Part shown: in pieces, positions 1 through 62,561 of the stretch | Layout: each line of letters begins with the position of its first letter | How positions within the stretch are numbered: position 1 is the stretch's first letter | IMG/VR virus record: IMGVR_UViG_3300025759_000088 | Location: 1 to 64,000 of that record | Length of the DNA: 64,000 nt | Strand: one strand, 5' to 3' | Source of the DNA: a virus | Notes under the pieces: model-generated | Seen by the model: the letters and a program-made list of their open reading frames with translations, nothing else | The model's database searches: none | Told to the model about the DNA's origin: nothing | Program-made: the position numbers and the translations under genes

Positions 1-50
1 TCAAGGATCGCATGTTCTAGATAATTGGTTGCTGCGTTTGACGTTGCCAT
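1..50 (-). CDS. 5' fragment of a tail-locus protein gene (partial at window edge)
   Basis: This encodes the first 16 residues of a protein and runs off the left edge. The bases are identical to the 5' end of the complete gene at 60305-60733. If the genome is a circle closing at 60683/1, this is the same gene and not a second copy. A GGAG ribosome site lies just upstream, at about 57-60. Confidence 0.8.
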   Translation of the reverse strand, partial: MATSNAATNYLEHAIL

Positions 51-127
51 GTCTTCTACTCCTTATGTACGAGGCCGATCTGGCAGACCTCTGCGATACG
101 CATCGCTGTTTTCTCTAGCTTCCGCCA
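1..127. repeat. 127-bp exact repeat, left copy
   Basis: Identical to 60684-60810; the first mismatch is 128 (a) versus 60811 (g), and the sequences are only about 80% alike after that. The length equals a common largest k-mer (127) of de Bruijn assemblers. This fits a loop edge, that is a circular genome of 60,683 bp, better than a biological terminal repeat. Confidence 0.9.
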
Positions 128-1147: not shown

Positions 1148-1948
1148 CTATGGCGTGTTTGCCGTGCCGCCCATACCACTGTGATTTGAGCAGTAATAAT
1201 ACAGAGTTGGAGCCCCAGAGGCTACCGTGATCTGTGTATACGCCCCTGAACTGCCCGGAGTGCCGTTGTGCGTTACACCGGTGGTGTATTCACTACCCCC
1301 CGCATGTGTTCCATTAGAAGTGGTAGAGAATCTGAAGGGATGCCCGGAATTACTGGAATCAGACTGATCAAATCGATAAGTGCTTCCCTCGTTGAGGGTG
1401 AGGGTTGGGGCAGCGCCTGAAAGACCTGCAATATAGTATTTATTACCGTATCCATCGCTTGAAACCGTTACCGTATAAACTGTTATTGCCAATACAGAGA
1501 CTGAACCTACGGCACTTGTCCCTGCTACGCCAGTTACCGCCGCCGTTGCAGATGCTATGTTAGACGCAACCACGCTTCCAACGTAACCTTCCGCGGAGAT
1601 GCCCGTAATTGATACTGAAATAGCTTCTCCCGTCGCACTGCCCGTCGCCACTACCTGCCCGACTGAACCTAGCATGACAGGTACTGGAATATACCTGATG
1701 GTGGTAAGATTGAAGGTTGGGAAAGTCACATTCACAGAAAAAATGTTCTGAGTGTCAGGTCTTGGATCACGCAACGCTTGCGGATCCGCTATATTCCGTA
1801 CAGGAAACAACTGTGGGTGTTTAGGATCAAATTCATCCGGGCCTACAATAGCCCCAGTCCATTCACGCTTTGCGTCCCTATATCTGTACCTCTGACCAGA
1901 ACGGTCAGAAATAAAATAAGCTCTTTTTCCTGACGCAAATTTAGACAT
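1148..1948 (-). CDS. Virion protein with C-terminal cupredoxin-like domain
   Basis: A 266-aa protein starting at the ATG that overlaps the preceding stop (ATGA at 1948). Residues 1-70 form a conserved phage domain (FASGKRAYFISDRSGQRYRY then VGPDEFDPKHPQL). The middle is a Ser/Val-rich beta region. The last 100 residues look like a cupredoxin: TYRFDQSDSSNSGHPFRFS, then YYYCSNHSGMGG. The His of GHPF plus Cys-x2-His-x2-Met are the kind of residues that bind type 1 copper. Copper binding is inferred, not shown. A diverged copy is at 61824-62561. Confidence 0.6.
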   Translation of the reverse strand: MSKFASGKRAYFISDRSGQRYRYRDAKREWTGAIVGPDEFDPKHPQLFPVRNIADPQALRDPRPDTQNIFSVNVTFPTFNLTTIRYIPVPVMLGSVGQVVATGSATGEAISVSITGISAEGYVGSVVASNIASATAAVTGVAGTSAVGSVSVLAITVYTVTVSSDGYGNKYYIAGLSGAAPTLTLNEGSTYRFDQSDSSNSGHPFRFSTTSNGTHAGGSEYTTGVTHNGTPGSSGAYTQITVASGAPTLYYYCSNHSGMGGTANTP

Positions 1949-5480: not shown

Positions 5481-6386
5481 TTACGCGCCGGGTGTGCCGA
5501 AGACACTGCGCCAGTCAGATACGCCGAAGCTATAACGCTCACGTGCCTTGAAGCGCATGTTACCCGTATCAAAATCACCTTCCATGGCAGTCTTGATTGG
5601 CGAACGGTTAAACATCTTAAAGCCGTTAGGTGCATCAGTCTTGATGAAAAATGCATCTGTGTCGGTCAGGAAGTGGTTAACCACTGCGCCGTCGGGGATC
5701 ATGCCCATATTCTTCATGGCATTCGCATCATTGTCGGCGGTGCCAACACGAAGGTTTGAGTTCATTACACGCTCTGCAATAAACTGAAGTTCCTTCGGAA
5801 TGATGAGCTTCATACCGCGGACAGCAACCTTGAGCCCGCGCTCATCGGTAAAGCCTGCGATATCAATCAGCATCTGCTCCAGTGACGTTTCGTTAAGATC
5901 CGCCGCTGTAGAAAGCAGGTTACGCTGGTTGCCAGACAGAGATGGGTGAGCGGCAGAACAAAGTGCTGCACCGTCACCAATCGGGCTACCGGTGCTGAAC
6001 GCATTGTTCAGAATCGCCGCAGCCTTGATCTGCTTGGTTTGTGCCATTGAACGAGCCAGCGCTTTTGTGTAACGCGAAGCCAGACGATCATAAAGATTGT
6101 CTTCAATAGCCTCTTCAGTAATTGAAAACGCAAGAGCAATTGTCTCGTGTGTGTAACGAGCCGTATATGTCTCTTGTGCATCATCAAACTGAACAGCACC
6201 ACCTTCGTTCTTAACAGGAGCCGTTGTGAAGCCCCCCAACATCACCTCTTCTTCAAAGGCCCGATCTGAGGACTCTTCTTCAAAGACTTCTGCATGCTCG
6301 TTCTCGTAACGAGAATACTCCAGACCAAACAGCGCGTTTAGGCCCGGCTCTAGCTCTTTTGCTAGTTGTGCGCGAGAAATAGCCAT
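5481..6386 (-). CDS. Major capsid protein
   Basis: A 301-aa HK97-fold-type head protein resembling the Mu gpT-like/phage major head family. Recognisable segments are LFGLEYSRYENEHAEVFEEE near residue 20, the conserved SAAHPSLSGNQRNLLS around residue 145 and a C-terminal SFGVSDWRSVFG. It lies in the order portal...scaffold...capsid expected for P22-like heads and is followed by a strong hairpin. Confidence 0.85.
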   Translation of the reverse strand: MAISRAQLAKELEPGLNALFGLEYSRYENEHAEVFEEESSDRAFEEEVMLGGFTTAPVKNEGGAVQFDDAQETYTARYTHETIALAFSITEEAIEDNLYDRLASRYTKALARSMAQTKQIKAAAILNNAFSTGSPIGDGAALCSAAHPSLSGNQRNLLSTAADLNETSLEQMLIDIAGFTDERGLKVAVRGMKLIIPKELQFIAERVMNSNLRVGTADNDANAMKNMGMIPDGAVVNHFLTDTDAFFIKTDAPNGFKMFNRSPIKTAMEGDFDTGNMRFKARERYSFGVSDWRSVFGTPGA

Positions 6387-56614: not shown

Positions 56615-57781
56615 TTACGTCATGTAAAAGCCATTAATATGAATATCGTTCAATTCCTGCAAATCACTGTCGTTACCCTTTAACGTGCCGCCATCAGACT
56701 TTTTGTAAAACAGCACATGCGTATCATTTTCCTGTATGAAAAGCGTCGGGCCACCTAGTTGAACATACCAGTTGTTGTTGTAAGTTATAAATGCACCGCC
56801 ATAAGCAGCAGCAGATGTGTCTGAATTAAAAGGCAGACCGGATATTCTCACTTGATTGCCGTTTGTTGTTGCAGCACTTGCCCTAATGCTTATTTGAAAA
56901 TAAACAAGACGCCCCACCTTAGTGTATTTTCCACCCCTAAATTGATAAGAAACGCTTGTCAAACCTTCTGTGTAAGCTGGCGTAAACGTGCCCTCCTCAT
57001 AGTCACTCAGAGCATTTGCACTGCCGGTGCCGCCAAGATACAGGTTGCCGCCAAGATAAAGGTCTTTGAAGCGGTTGTTAGATGCGCCTAAATCACTAGT
57101 GCCGTCACTATCGCTTCCGTTTTCTCTTGGTGTGATTGCGCCGTTGGCAAAGCGAATGCCTTCGTGACCGCTTTCACCATCAATGTAAAAGCCGCTAGAC
57201 TGTATGCCAATACTCCCCACCGTGGTGTTGTCTTTACGAGCCTCAATAATAGTGCCGTCACTTGATTTTCTGTTCACATAAAGGGCTGTTGCACCATCTT
57301 TTGTAAAACCAGCGGTAGCAGATGGACTTATCTGAAAGCCTATGTTGTCAAAGCTGGCAGAAGTTTTGCCCCCCGTCATAAACACGTTGTTGCTATCTAT
57401 AATTACAGCGGTGGCACCCGCATTGTCGTCGATGCCGGGTGATGTAAATGCGCCGGTAAACGTACCCGTCGTCGCCGCCAGCGCAGAGTTAGCATCATGC
57501 TCTAGGCGCGGGTTGATAGTCGCCTCACCACGGTAGATGACATAGATGTTGCCGGTGCCCGAAGCAGGGGCTGCGCTGAACGTCAGCGTCGTACCGCTGG
57601 CAGTATACGCCTTGCCTGAACCCGGTTCCTGCTGGACGTTGTTGACAAACACCTCTAGGTCTTCGCTCACATTGACGGACCTGTTCAGCGTAAACGCAGT
57701 CGCCGAACCAGTGCCGTTAAACGACTGACTCGTTGTCTGATTTACTATCGCTGTGTTTGGTGCCTTGCCAATATATGCCAT
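56615..57781 (-). CDS. Tail fibre-type protein, 388 aa
   Basis: N-terminal module as in 54635-55369 (MAYIGKAPNTAIVNQTTSQS; ATAFTLNRSVNVSEDLEVFV). The middle resembles bacteriophage fibre shafts (ITPRENGSDSDGTSDLGASN; NRFKDLYLGGNLYLGG). The distal domain EEGTFTPAYTEGLTSVSYQF, then KVGRLVYFQISIRAS, is shared with 55418-56275. It may be the main long fibre. Confidence 0.6.
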   Translation of the reverse strand: MAYIGKAPNTAIVNQTTSQSFNGTGSATAFTLNRSVNVSEDLEVFVNNVQQEPGSGKAYTASGTTLTFSAAPASGTGNIYVIYRGEATINPRLEHDANSALAATTGTFTGAFTSPGIDDNAGATAVIIDSNNVFMTGGKTSASFDNIGFQISPSATAGFTKDGATALYVNRKSSDGTIIEARKDNTTVGSIGIQSSGFYIDGESGHEGIRFANGAITPRENGSDSDGTSDLGASNNRFKDLYLGGNLYLGGTGSANALSDYEEGTFTPAYTEGLTSVSYQFRGGKYTKVGRLVYFQISIRASAATTNGNQVRISGLPFNSDTSAAAYGGAFITYNNNWYVQLGGPTLFIQENDTHVLFYKKSDGGTLKGNDSDLQELNDIHINGFYMT

Positions 57782-59193
57782 TAGCCAGCCTCCAGTGCTG
57801 CGATACGAGCCTTCGCTTCATCAAGTTCGGTTTTCAGTTCTTGGATTGCTTTGATGCACAGCGACACCATATTTCCATATGCAAGCGCATCCGGCTCATC
57901 ATCGTCGTTGTATTGAACAAACTCTGTCAAGCCAGCGTCGTGGACTTCTTCAGCAATCAAACCGCCGAATACTGTGTCGCCATCGTTGTTACCTTTGTAG
58001 GTAATGGGACGAAGTGTAAGCAGTTCAGTGAGGCCGTGTGTGGCGTCGGTTATAGTGTTCTTGTAGCGGCGGGATGATGTGGAACGATGAATTACTCCTG
58101 CGGAGTTAACTTGCATATTTGCTGGATTACTTGTGGTGTCGTTGTAAATTTGCGGTACAAAAAGTGTTCCATTGGCGTTTAGGTAAAGACGAGGATTACC
58201 ATCTCCATCTGACAGCACGATATGGTTATAAGCAGCACTGATGTTTAGGCCGCCTTGATTGCCGTTGTATCGGCCAAGAATGGTGTTTCTATAACCAGTA
58301 CTTACCCGTGACCCAGAGCCGTTGCCTATAAAGGTGTTTCTGTCGCCAGTGGTGCTACCACCAGCACCGCCGTAAGTTCCATCGGTACTGCCTACAAAAG
58401 TATTGAAACTTGCAGTTGTAGCTGAGGCACCAGAATCTGCTCCTACGTATGTATTATATTGGCCTGTGGTTGTGCCAATTCCTGAGTTATATCCCGCTGC
58501 AAAATTCTTGGTACCCGTAGTGTTGTTAATTAAAGCCGCATAACCTACCGCCGTATTGTTGGATGCGGTGGTGTTTGCAAAAAGAGAATTAACACCTACA
58601 GAAACATTATTTGCTCCCGTAGTATTTGAATACAGGGCTTGATAGCCATAGGCACTATTTGCGTCTGCTGTTGTATTGGTCGATAAAGCGTTGACACCAA
58701 AAGCGGAGTTGTTATCACCTGTTGTATTAGCATCAAGAGCAAGCGAACCCACAGACGTATTTGCTGCGCCGGTGGTATTAGCACTTAATCCAACATAACC
58801 CACTGCTGTGTTGTTAGATGCCGTAGTATTCGCTCGTAACGCATTTTTTCCAACAGCTACATTACTGCCCCCAGTAGTATTTCCACTCAAAGATTGCGAA
58901 CCTACTGCGGTGCTATTATTACCAGAGGTGTTTGCATCAAGACTATTCCATCCGACAGCCACATTTTCTTGACCGCCCTCGTTCTCACCAAGTGCAGCCT
59001 CTCCTACCGCCACGTTATAGCCACCAGACAAAGAGCCATCATCAAGTGCGCCATCCCCTAGAGCAGTGTTGTCTGTGCCTGTGGGAAATGCCCCATCTAA
59101 CTTGATAGTGCCGCCGTCCGCGCTGACGTTACCGGAAACCGTTAGTGACGCCGCAGAATCAATTTGATTTGAACCAACCTTACTAAGTGCCAT
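57781..59193 (-). CDS. Tail spike/fibre with repeat shaft and S74 chaperone, 470 aa
   Basis: The N-terminus is followed by about 18 units of roughly 16 residues around N-T-T-G-x-x-N-x-x-x-G-x-x-A-L (SGNTTGGSNVAVGKNALRAN), a YadA-like beta-roll shaft. Residues from about 375 form the intramolecular chaperone of endosialidase (peptidase S74): SSRRYKNTITDATHGLTELL, FGGLIAEEVHDAGLTEFVQY, LCIKAIQELKTELDEAKAR. In the family, a Ser at the start of this domain self-cleaves after trimerisation (a Ser lies in the HRSTSSRRYKN junction here). Confidence 0.85.
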   Translation of the reverse strand: MALSKVGSNQIDSAASLTVSGNVSADGGTIKLDGAFPTGTDNTALGDGALDDGSLSGGYNVAVGEAALGENEGGQENVAVGWNSLDANTSGNNSTAVGSQSLSGNTTGGSNVAVGKNALRANTTASNNTAVGYVGLSANTTGAANTSVGSLALDANTTGDNNSAFGVNALSTNTTADANSAYGYQALYSNTTGANNVSVGVNSLFANTTASNNTAVGYAALINNTTGTKNFAAGYNSGIGTTTGQYNTYVGADSGASATTASFNTFVGSTDGTYGGAGGSTTGDRNTFIGNGSGSRVSTGYRNTILGRYNGNQGGLNISAAYNHIVLSDGDGNPRLYLNANGTLFVPQIYNDTTSNPANMQVNSAGVIHRSTSSRRYKNTITDATHGLTELLTLRPITYKGNNDGDTVFGGLIAEEVHDAGLTEFVQYNDDDEPDALAYGNMVSLCIKAIQELKTELDEAKARIAALEAG

Positions 59194-60304: not shown

Positions 60305-60733
60305 TTACTTTAGCTCTATCGACAGGTTGCCTGCGTTAATGCGGAAGATATCGCCAGTGGCGATTGTCTTACTTGCATCAAGTGCGCCAACGAACAGGAT
60401 GTTTCCGCTACTAGCCGCGTCTACAACAAACGCATGTGTGATCGTGTTGTTTGTGCCGGTAGACGCCGGGAACTCAATATTGGCCGCGTTTGTTGCGGTC
60501 TGAGCATCTGTTCCCACTGCGGGAACTGTCCAGCCGGAAGCCTGAACCTGCTGCCTAGCGTAAGATCCAAACGTGGCCTCTGTTAGAGAGCCTGTTTCAA
60601 TACTAGATACGGCGGTTGCAAGGCCGACATAAATGCTGTTGCCGGGGGTGGCAAAGCTCTCCGAGTTATTCTTGAACAAGAAATCAAGGATCGCATGTTC
60701 TAGATAATTGGTTGCTGCGTTTGACGTTGCCAT
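60305..60733 (-). CDS. Conserved phage structural protein, 142 aa
   Basis: MATSNAATNYLEHAILDFLF, IYVGLATAVSSIETGSLTEA is a family found in many marine and tailed phages next to tail/neck genes. Ala/Thr/Ser-rich and beta-type. Its first 16 codons also occur at 1-50. On the circular map it precedes the adaptor gene at 63-716. Confidence 0.6.
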   Translation of the reverse strand: MATSNAATNYLEHAILDFLFKNNSESFATPGNSIYVGLATAVSSIETGSLTEATFGSYARQQVQASGWTVPAVGTDAQTATNAANIEFPASTGTNNTITHAFVVDAASSGNILFVGALDASKTIATGDIFRINAGNLSIELK

Positions 60734-60810
60734 GTCTTCTACTCCTTATGTACGAGGCCGATCTGGCAGACCTCTGCGATACGCATCGCTGTTTTCTCTA
60801 GCTTCCGCCA
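60684..60810. repeat. 127-bp exact repeat, right copy
   Basis: Identical to bases 1-127 and covering the end of the 142-aa gene and the end of the adaptor gene. To its right the sequence departs from the left copy at once. This is the proposed join between two phage genomes. Confidence 0.9.
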
Positions 60811-61823: not shown

Positions 61824-62561
61824 CTATGGCGTGTTCGCTGTACCGCCCATGCCGCTGTGGTTTGTGCAGTAATAATACAGAGTTGGAGTCCCCGAGGCTA
61901 CCGTGATCTGTGTGTAAGCTCCCGAGCTACCCGGGGAACCGTTAGTAGATACACCTGTTGTATACTCGGAACCCCCGGCGTGAGTGCCGTTGGCAGTTTC
62001 TGAAAACCGGAAGGGATGCCCCGAGTTGCTGTTGTCTGATTGATCGAACCTGTAGGTAGAACCCTCGCTTAACGTAAGCGTCGGAGAAGCCCCCGACAAA
62101 CCAGCAACATAATACTTATTGCCTGTTCCGTAAGAATTTGTTCCCGAAGCAACAGTAACTGTGTAGTTCGTAACGATTCCAACTGAAACAGAATTTACGC
62201 CGCCAGTGGCGGAAACCCCGGTTATGGATACAGTAACAGTCCCTGATGGTGTTGTACCTGTTGTGACTACGTCTCCCACAAATCCATGCATGACTGCAAC
62301 AGGAGACACTTCCAGCGTCCGTGAGTTAAACGTGGGAAATGTTATAGTGACTGAATGAATAATCGAGGGTGGTCGTGGATTGTGAAGAGCCTGCGGATCC
62401 GGCCCCACTCGAACGGGCTGTAGTTGAGGATGCTTCGTCTCATACTCATCAGGTCCGACTTTTAAACCATTCCACTCCGTAACCATTTCTCGAAGACGAT
62501 ACCGGAATCCGGATCTATCCGAATAGCCCCAGGCGTCTTTTCCTGAAGCGAACCGCGCCAT
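61824..62561 (-). CDS. Cupredoxin-domain virion protein, diverged second copy, 245 aa
   Basis: Homologous to 1148-1948 but with a shorter middle. The copper-site pattern is unchanged: GHPFRFS and YYYCTNHSGMGG. Conservation of His, Cys, His and Met across otherwise diverged copies supports a functional site. Confidence 0.6.
   Translation of the reverse strand: MARFASGKDAWGYSDRSGFRYRLREMVTEWNGLKVGPDEYETKHPQLQPVRVGPDPQALHNPRPPSIIHSVTITFPTFNSRTLEVSPVAVMHGFVGDVVTTGTTPSGTVTVSITGVSATGGVNSVSVGIVTNYTVTVASGTNSYGTGNKYYVAGLSGASPTLTLSEGSTYRFDQSDNSNSGHPFRFSETANGTHAGGSEYTTGVSTNGSPGSSGAYTQITVASGTPTLYYYCTNHSGMGGTANTP

Follow-up and report, generated by a model that had tools for sequence, protein, structure and literature searches.

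Within a 64,000-nucleotide stretch of viral DNA (positions 1 to 64,000 of IMG/VR virus record IMGVR_UViG_3300025759_000088; hereafter the window), we found that a phage neck-region protein ends in a domain, residues 155-266, which very likely binds copper, as predicted from its structural model and from the conservation of four putative metal ligands. We lean modestly towards the reading that this cupredoxin, with the full set of type 1 (blue) copper ligands, serves as an interchangeable neck and tail decoration of marine phages, loaded with copper and displayed for the encounter with the host.

Predicted fold and ligands of the C-terminal domain

The open reading frame at 1148-1948 on the minus strand was confirmed and encodes 266 amino acids from an ATG at 1948, which overlaps the stop codon of the upstream adaptor gene; an alternative upstream start, a TTG at 1951, is on offer, and homologues begin at the same Met as the 1948 start. 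The protein consists of an N-terminal domain matching phrog_28581 (residues 1-75; 1724-1948, minus strand) with a degenerate zinc-ribbon-like element, a linker of low model confidence (residues 76-154; 1487-1723, minus strand) that shows GVxxTxxVGxV-type repeats across the family, and a domain with a predicted cupredoxin fold (residues 155-266; 1151-1486, minus strand). Zinc-ribbon-like CxxC...CxxC motifs occur in the N-terminal regions of five related proteins and are absent from the window protein, for which a zinc-ribbon role of the N-terminal domain was ruled out, as the cysteines are missing. The last domain contains ...SGHPFRF...LYYYCSNHSGMGG..., in the order GHPF, then CSNHSGM. The pattern that the original prediction had pointed to, GHPF-His followed by Cys-x2-His-x2-Met, was thus recovered as four candidate ligands on the minus strand, assigned from alignments and from comparison with amicyanin: His203 within GHPF (ligand 1; 1340-1342), Cys253 (ligand 2; 1190-1192), His256 (ligand 3; 1181-1183), and the axial Met259 (ligand 4; 1172-1174).

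AlphaFold2 modeled the isolated domain with a mean pLDDT of 97.6 and a pTM of 0.90. The full-length model reached a pLDDT of 68.5, being poor outside the ends with the linker below 50, and we therefore make no claim on the shape of the whole protein. When the domain model was compared with the PDB (Foldseek, VIA-align), the rows were headed by cupredoxins. The best match was the N-terminal cupredoxin domain of the Hyphomicrobium nitrite reductase HdNIR (Z 9.9 over 97 residues, rmsd 2.4), with further matches to a laccase T1 domain (Z 8.5) and rusticyanin (Z 8.5), and with amicyanin lower in the Foldseek list; Foldseek E-values against the PDB were 4e-3 at best. Antibody chains were scattered among these rows at worse scores, and the diverged profile described below drew antibody hits as well; we took these antibody matches as probable beta-sandwich background. 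As predicted by the model, the domain has the Greek-key beta-sandwich fold of cupredoxins. In the numbering of the domain model, Cys99 ends the strand 95-99, His102 and Met105 lie in the loop before the strand 107-110, and His49 sits just before the strand 51-54, a modeled placement of the Cys, the His, the Met and the first His that is as in known blue copper proteins.

Sequence comparisons agreed with the model at varying strength. Aligning the family to amicyanin with hhalign placed all four residues on its copper ligands (E 8e-4, as a single comparison), and a profile of the diverged set searched against the PDB reached the copper nitrite reductase CuNIR at E 0.0024 and plastocyanin at E about 0.01, with the plastocyanin ligands aligned, while hhalign of the closely related set against known cupredoxins aligned the C-terminal ligand loop alone. 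The copy from P-SSM2 matched Pfam Cupredoxin_1 at E 2.7e-4 and Copper-bind at E 1.1e-3, both under the curated cut-offs (19.8 of 21.2 bits for PF00127 and 21.4 of 27 bits for PF13473). Searched as a single sequence, the window protein gave no match in Pfam or NCBIfam and nothing useful among PDB sequences, known cupredoxins being reached by the diverged profiles only; the window domain falls below the curated cut-off and is not assignable to PF00127 or PF13473. Phage copies also match, weakly, a plant At5g54830-like domain (PF25489, E 0.005, under the cut-off; locus L114, positions 578-922).

Two groups of known copper proteins are the closest points of comparison. Amicyanin, plastocyanin, pseudoazurin and rusticyanin resemble the phage domain in predicted fold and in the positions of the H...C-x2-H...M residues, and the C-x2-H-x2-M spacing of the window domain is that of amicyanin, whereas the phage domain differs from these small blue copper proteins in being carried on phage structural proteins, in having a His-Pro at ligand 1, and in scoring under the Pfam cut-offs. 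Small blue copper proteins usually have an Asn after the first ligand, while laccase T1 sites have HP, and the HPF at the first ligand of the phage domain resembles the laccase motif HPFHLHG. The type 1 copper domains of laccases and CuNIR likewise match the phage domain in fold, whereas the phage protein has a single such domain, without the ligands for trinuclear or catalytic copper.

Ligand conservation and the second copy

The original prediction had drawn attention to a diverged copy of the protein at 61824-62561 (minus strand) that keeps the same residues. Alignment confirmed that all four are present there, but the window phage probably does not encode the protein twice. In the record, a virus contig of 65,072 bases, window positions 1-127 are identical to 60684-60810 and the sequences diverge afterwards; metagenome assemblers commonly use 127 as their maximum k-mer length. 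The simplest reading of this exact 127-bp repeat is an assembly junction, with the contig probably comprising a circular genome, complete at 60,683 bp, and a branch (60811-65072) from a co-assembled sister phage. Related contigs carry one block each; given this and the exact overlap, we set aside, as the less likely case, the alternative of two paralogous blocks in one phage, and the protein at 61824-62561 most likely belongs to a co-occurring sister phage, as the orthologue of the window protein. Because the domains of the two proteins are 87% identical, the conservation of the ligands between them means little.

We therefore base the case for conservation on a wider sample, for which we gathered 80 viral loci and another 26 from collections of cellular genomes. 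Among 60 non-redundant domains, the Cys and the second His were invariant, and the first His and the Met were kept in all but one, the sole exception having Asp in place of the His and also Leu in place of the Met. Across 21 diverged phage and cellular sequences, which share 22-46% identity with the first row of their alignment, H, C, H and M were invariant and no other column was. The ligand columns ranked as the top four in the pooled alignment and stayed the best-conserved columns even in subsets of ~30% mean identity, with one Tyr tying in the two smallest clustered subsets. Conservation of the four residues is, on these alignments, far beyond what chance would produce.

A search blind to the ligands gave a similar picture. 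Loci were fetched by their neighboring genes, and the profile hid the first His and omitted everything from the Cys onward. This yielded 39 distinct copies, of which 36 had all four ligands, 2 had none, and 1 was cut by a contig end, leaving no partial ligand set among the 38 complete copies; the two ligandless ones were nearly identical to each other. Such all-or-none keeping is what a metal site predicts. In a clade of five loci, the domain is retained with all four ligands gone (Y, S, D and L in the alignment). Taken together, the predicted fold, the alignment with the amicyanin and plastocyanin ligands, and the joint keeping or loss of the four residues support the proposal that these are cupredoxin-type ligands.

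Neck context and mobility of the module

The gene order around the cupredoxin gene points to a role in the virion. On the minus strand, it follows neck adaptor 1 (1948-2616; Pfam SU10_adaptor, E 7.6e-13) and is followed by a gene for a phrog_644 protein of the same block (716-1138; PHROG match) and by neck adaptor 2 (63-716; SU10_adaptor, E 6e-28), and in most related contigs the cupredoxin gene likewise lies between the two adaptors. From this gene context and from adaptor fusions, the product of 1148-1948 would be a virion protein. The earlier assignment to the virion accordingly gained support from the SU10-adaptor neighbors, from fusions with and insertions into adaptors, and from matches to phage proteins labeled "virion structural protein" or "tail fiber". 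Elsewhere in the window, a 470-amino-acid protein at 57781-59193 has a weak C-terminal match to the S74 endosialidase chaperone and is a likely tail spike.

The module moves between positions and proteins. In phage 023Pt_psg01 it lies N-terminal to adaptor 1, in a protein whose adaptor part matches the window adaptor 1 and gives no Pfam match, and one further locus has the same arrangement with a recognizable adaptor (SU10_adaptor E 1.7e-16). Three loci have the whole cupredoxin cassette inserted inside an SU10-type adaptor 2, and two carry the module in tandem. A detectable cupredoxin was present in 22 of the 79 proteins fetched by the N-terminal domain, and in short homologues that consist of this domain and end near VTVTT, no frameshifted cupredoxin was found downstream, the next open reading frame being adaptor 2. 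For HTVC023P, HTVC027P and DSL-LC04, isolates related to the window phage by terminase and capsid, the regions that were fetched contained the N-terminal domain with no cupredoxin detected. Fusion to adaptor 1, insertion into adaptor 2, and absence from relatives therefore indicate, at the level of gene arrangement, that the cupredoxin domain is an optional and mobile module decorating necks and tails. In two loci, the N-terminal protein is followed by a gene for a tail-like protein, part of which looks like a cupredoxin (SSHPLQIRTSNGG...), and this suggests that the module moved to the adjacent gene. In these respects the domain resembles the Ig-like decoration domains of phages, which are also accessory modules, joined to neck and tail proteins or placed inside them, and optional among relatives, with the difference that a predicted cupredoxin fold and a metal-ligand set take the place of the Ig domain.

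Domain matches were found in 358 isolate records, many of them near-identical isolates, and in at least 598 confirmed viral-contig stretches, and the matches found show a marine bias. The proteins that contain the domain in isolated cyanophages and pelagiphages bear the annotations tail fiber, baseplate connector or virion structural protein; S-TIM5, P-SSM2 and the pelagiphages HTVC028P and EXVC032P are among the isolates with the domain. PHROG families 30742, 693, 708, 27200 and 28581 contain the cupredoxin domain or the N-terminal part, and their labels read tail fiber, baseplate or unknown and name neither cupredoxin nor copper. Among cellular collections, a SAR86 contig (locus L102, positions 5857-6342) encodes a 161-amino-acid protein with a lipobox-like start and a lone cupredoxin domain, with ordinary metabolic genes on either side. 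In contigs binned as Bacteroidetes, Prochlorococcus, SAR116 and marine archaea, some of which may come from viruses, the domain is combined with Ig-like, FG-GAP, laminin-G, RTX, collagen-repeat or DUF4214 parts.

Candidate roles of the putative metal site

In the reading that we favor, the cupredoxin would form the C-terminal head of a protein whose gene lies between two head-to-tail adaptor genes, and this head would probably be displayed in several copies around the neck. The protein would be assembled in its apo form inside the cell; after lysis, the Cys/His/His/Met site would take up Cu(I)/Cu(II), and the copper-loaded domain would face outward and aid the particle when it meets a host, perhaps by adhering weakly to partners on the cell surface, a role that has been proposed for the Ig-like domains of phages. 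Copper as the metal, its loading after lysis, the outward display, and the copy number are what we infer, and a role in adhesion is suggested by the analogy to those domains.

The main rival to display for host encounter is electron transfer, in which the virion cupredoxin would take up or give off an electron at the envelope of the host, and this might, for instance, trigger DNA delivery or serve as a check on it. Redox potential in blue copper sites is tuned by the axial Met, which is as conserved here as the other ligands, and the ligand loop has the spacing of amicyanin, an electron carrier. Yet no redox partner gene was noticed beside the cupredoxin gene, and the hopping of the domain among unrelated structural proteins and positions fits decoration better than a specific electron circuit, so that we regard electron transfer as unlikely. 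We give somewhat less credence to a second idea, that copper or another metal lets the particle dock on metal-uptake receptors of the host. Its precedent is the T4 gp37 tip, where iron is bound by HxH motifs and for which a Trojan Horse hypothesis was put forward (PMC11705849); these T4-type tail fiber sites are likewise transition-metal sites in phage tail proteins, although in another fold, with other metal ligands, and at another location on the virion. The marine bias of the matches found would suit such docking, whereas the gene context here is the neck rather than a fiber tip. Type 1 copper sites are moreover buried and hold copper tightly, which speaks against it.

A purely structural metal, perhaps zinc or copper, that merely stiffens the small beta-sandwich strikes us as improbable. 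The site is strictly conserved, and decoration domains would presumably need stability in seawater, but the ligandless clade keeps the domain, and the fold thus seems able to do without the site, contrary to what a purely structural metal would lead one to expect; a Met axial ligand is also unusual in zinc structural sites. That the residues are vestiges of a cellular cupredoxin and bind no metal is very improbable, even though the ligandless clade exists and copper binding is so far a prediction, as the ligands are the best-conserved columns at ~30% mean identity and are kept or lost together.

Display for host encounter thus remains the reading that we prefer. In the open papers searched, with subscription journals mostly outside the search, we found no description of cupredoxins in phage virions; blue copper domains and accessory decoration domains of phages are each known, and their combination appears to be unreported in those papers. 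A bolder proposal, which we consider rather doubtful, is that several marine phage groups carry redox-active blue copper proteins on their particles and that virions exchange copper and electrons with the host surface; if the redox-active reading were true, this would be a virion role not described before. A domain that has been filed as tail fiber or unknown gains a likely identity. Should copper be bound, marine phage particles of a widespread class would be copper-carrying, which would bear on trace-metal cycling, on the hypothesis that metals take part in phage attachment, and on host recognition by the short-tailed phages of ocean bacteria.
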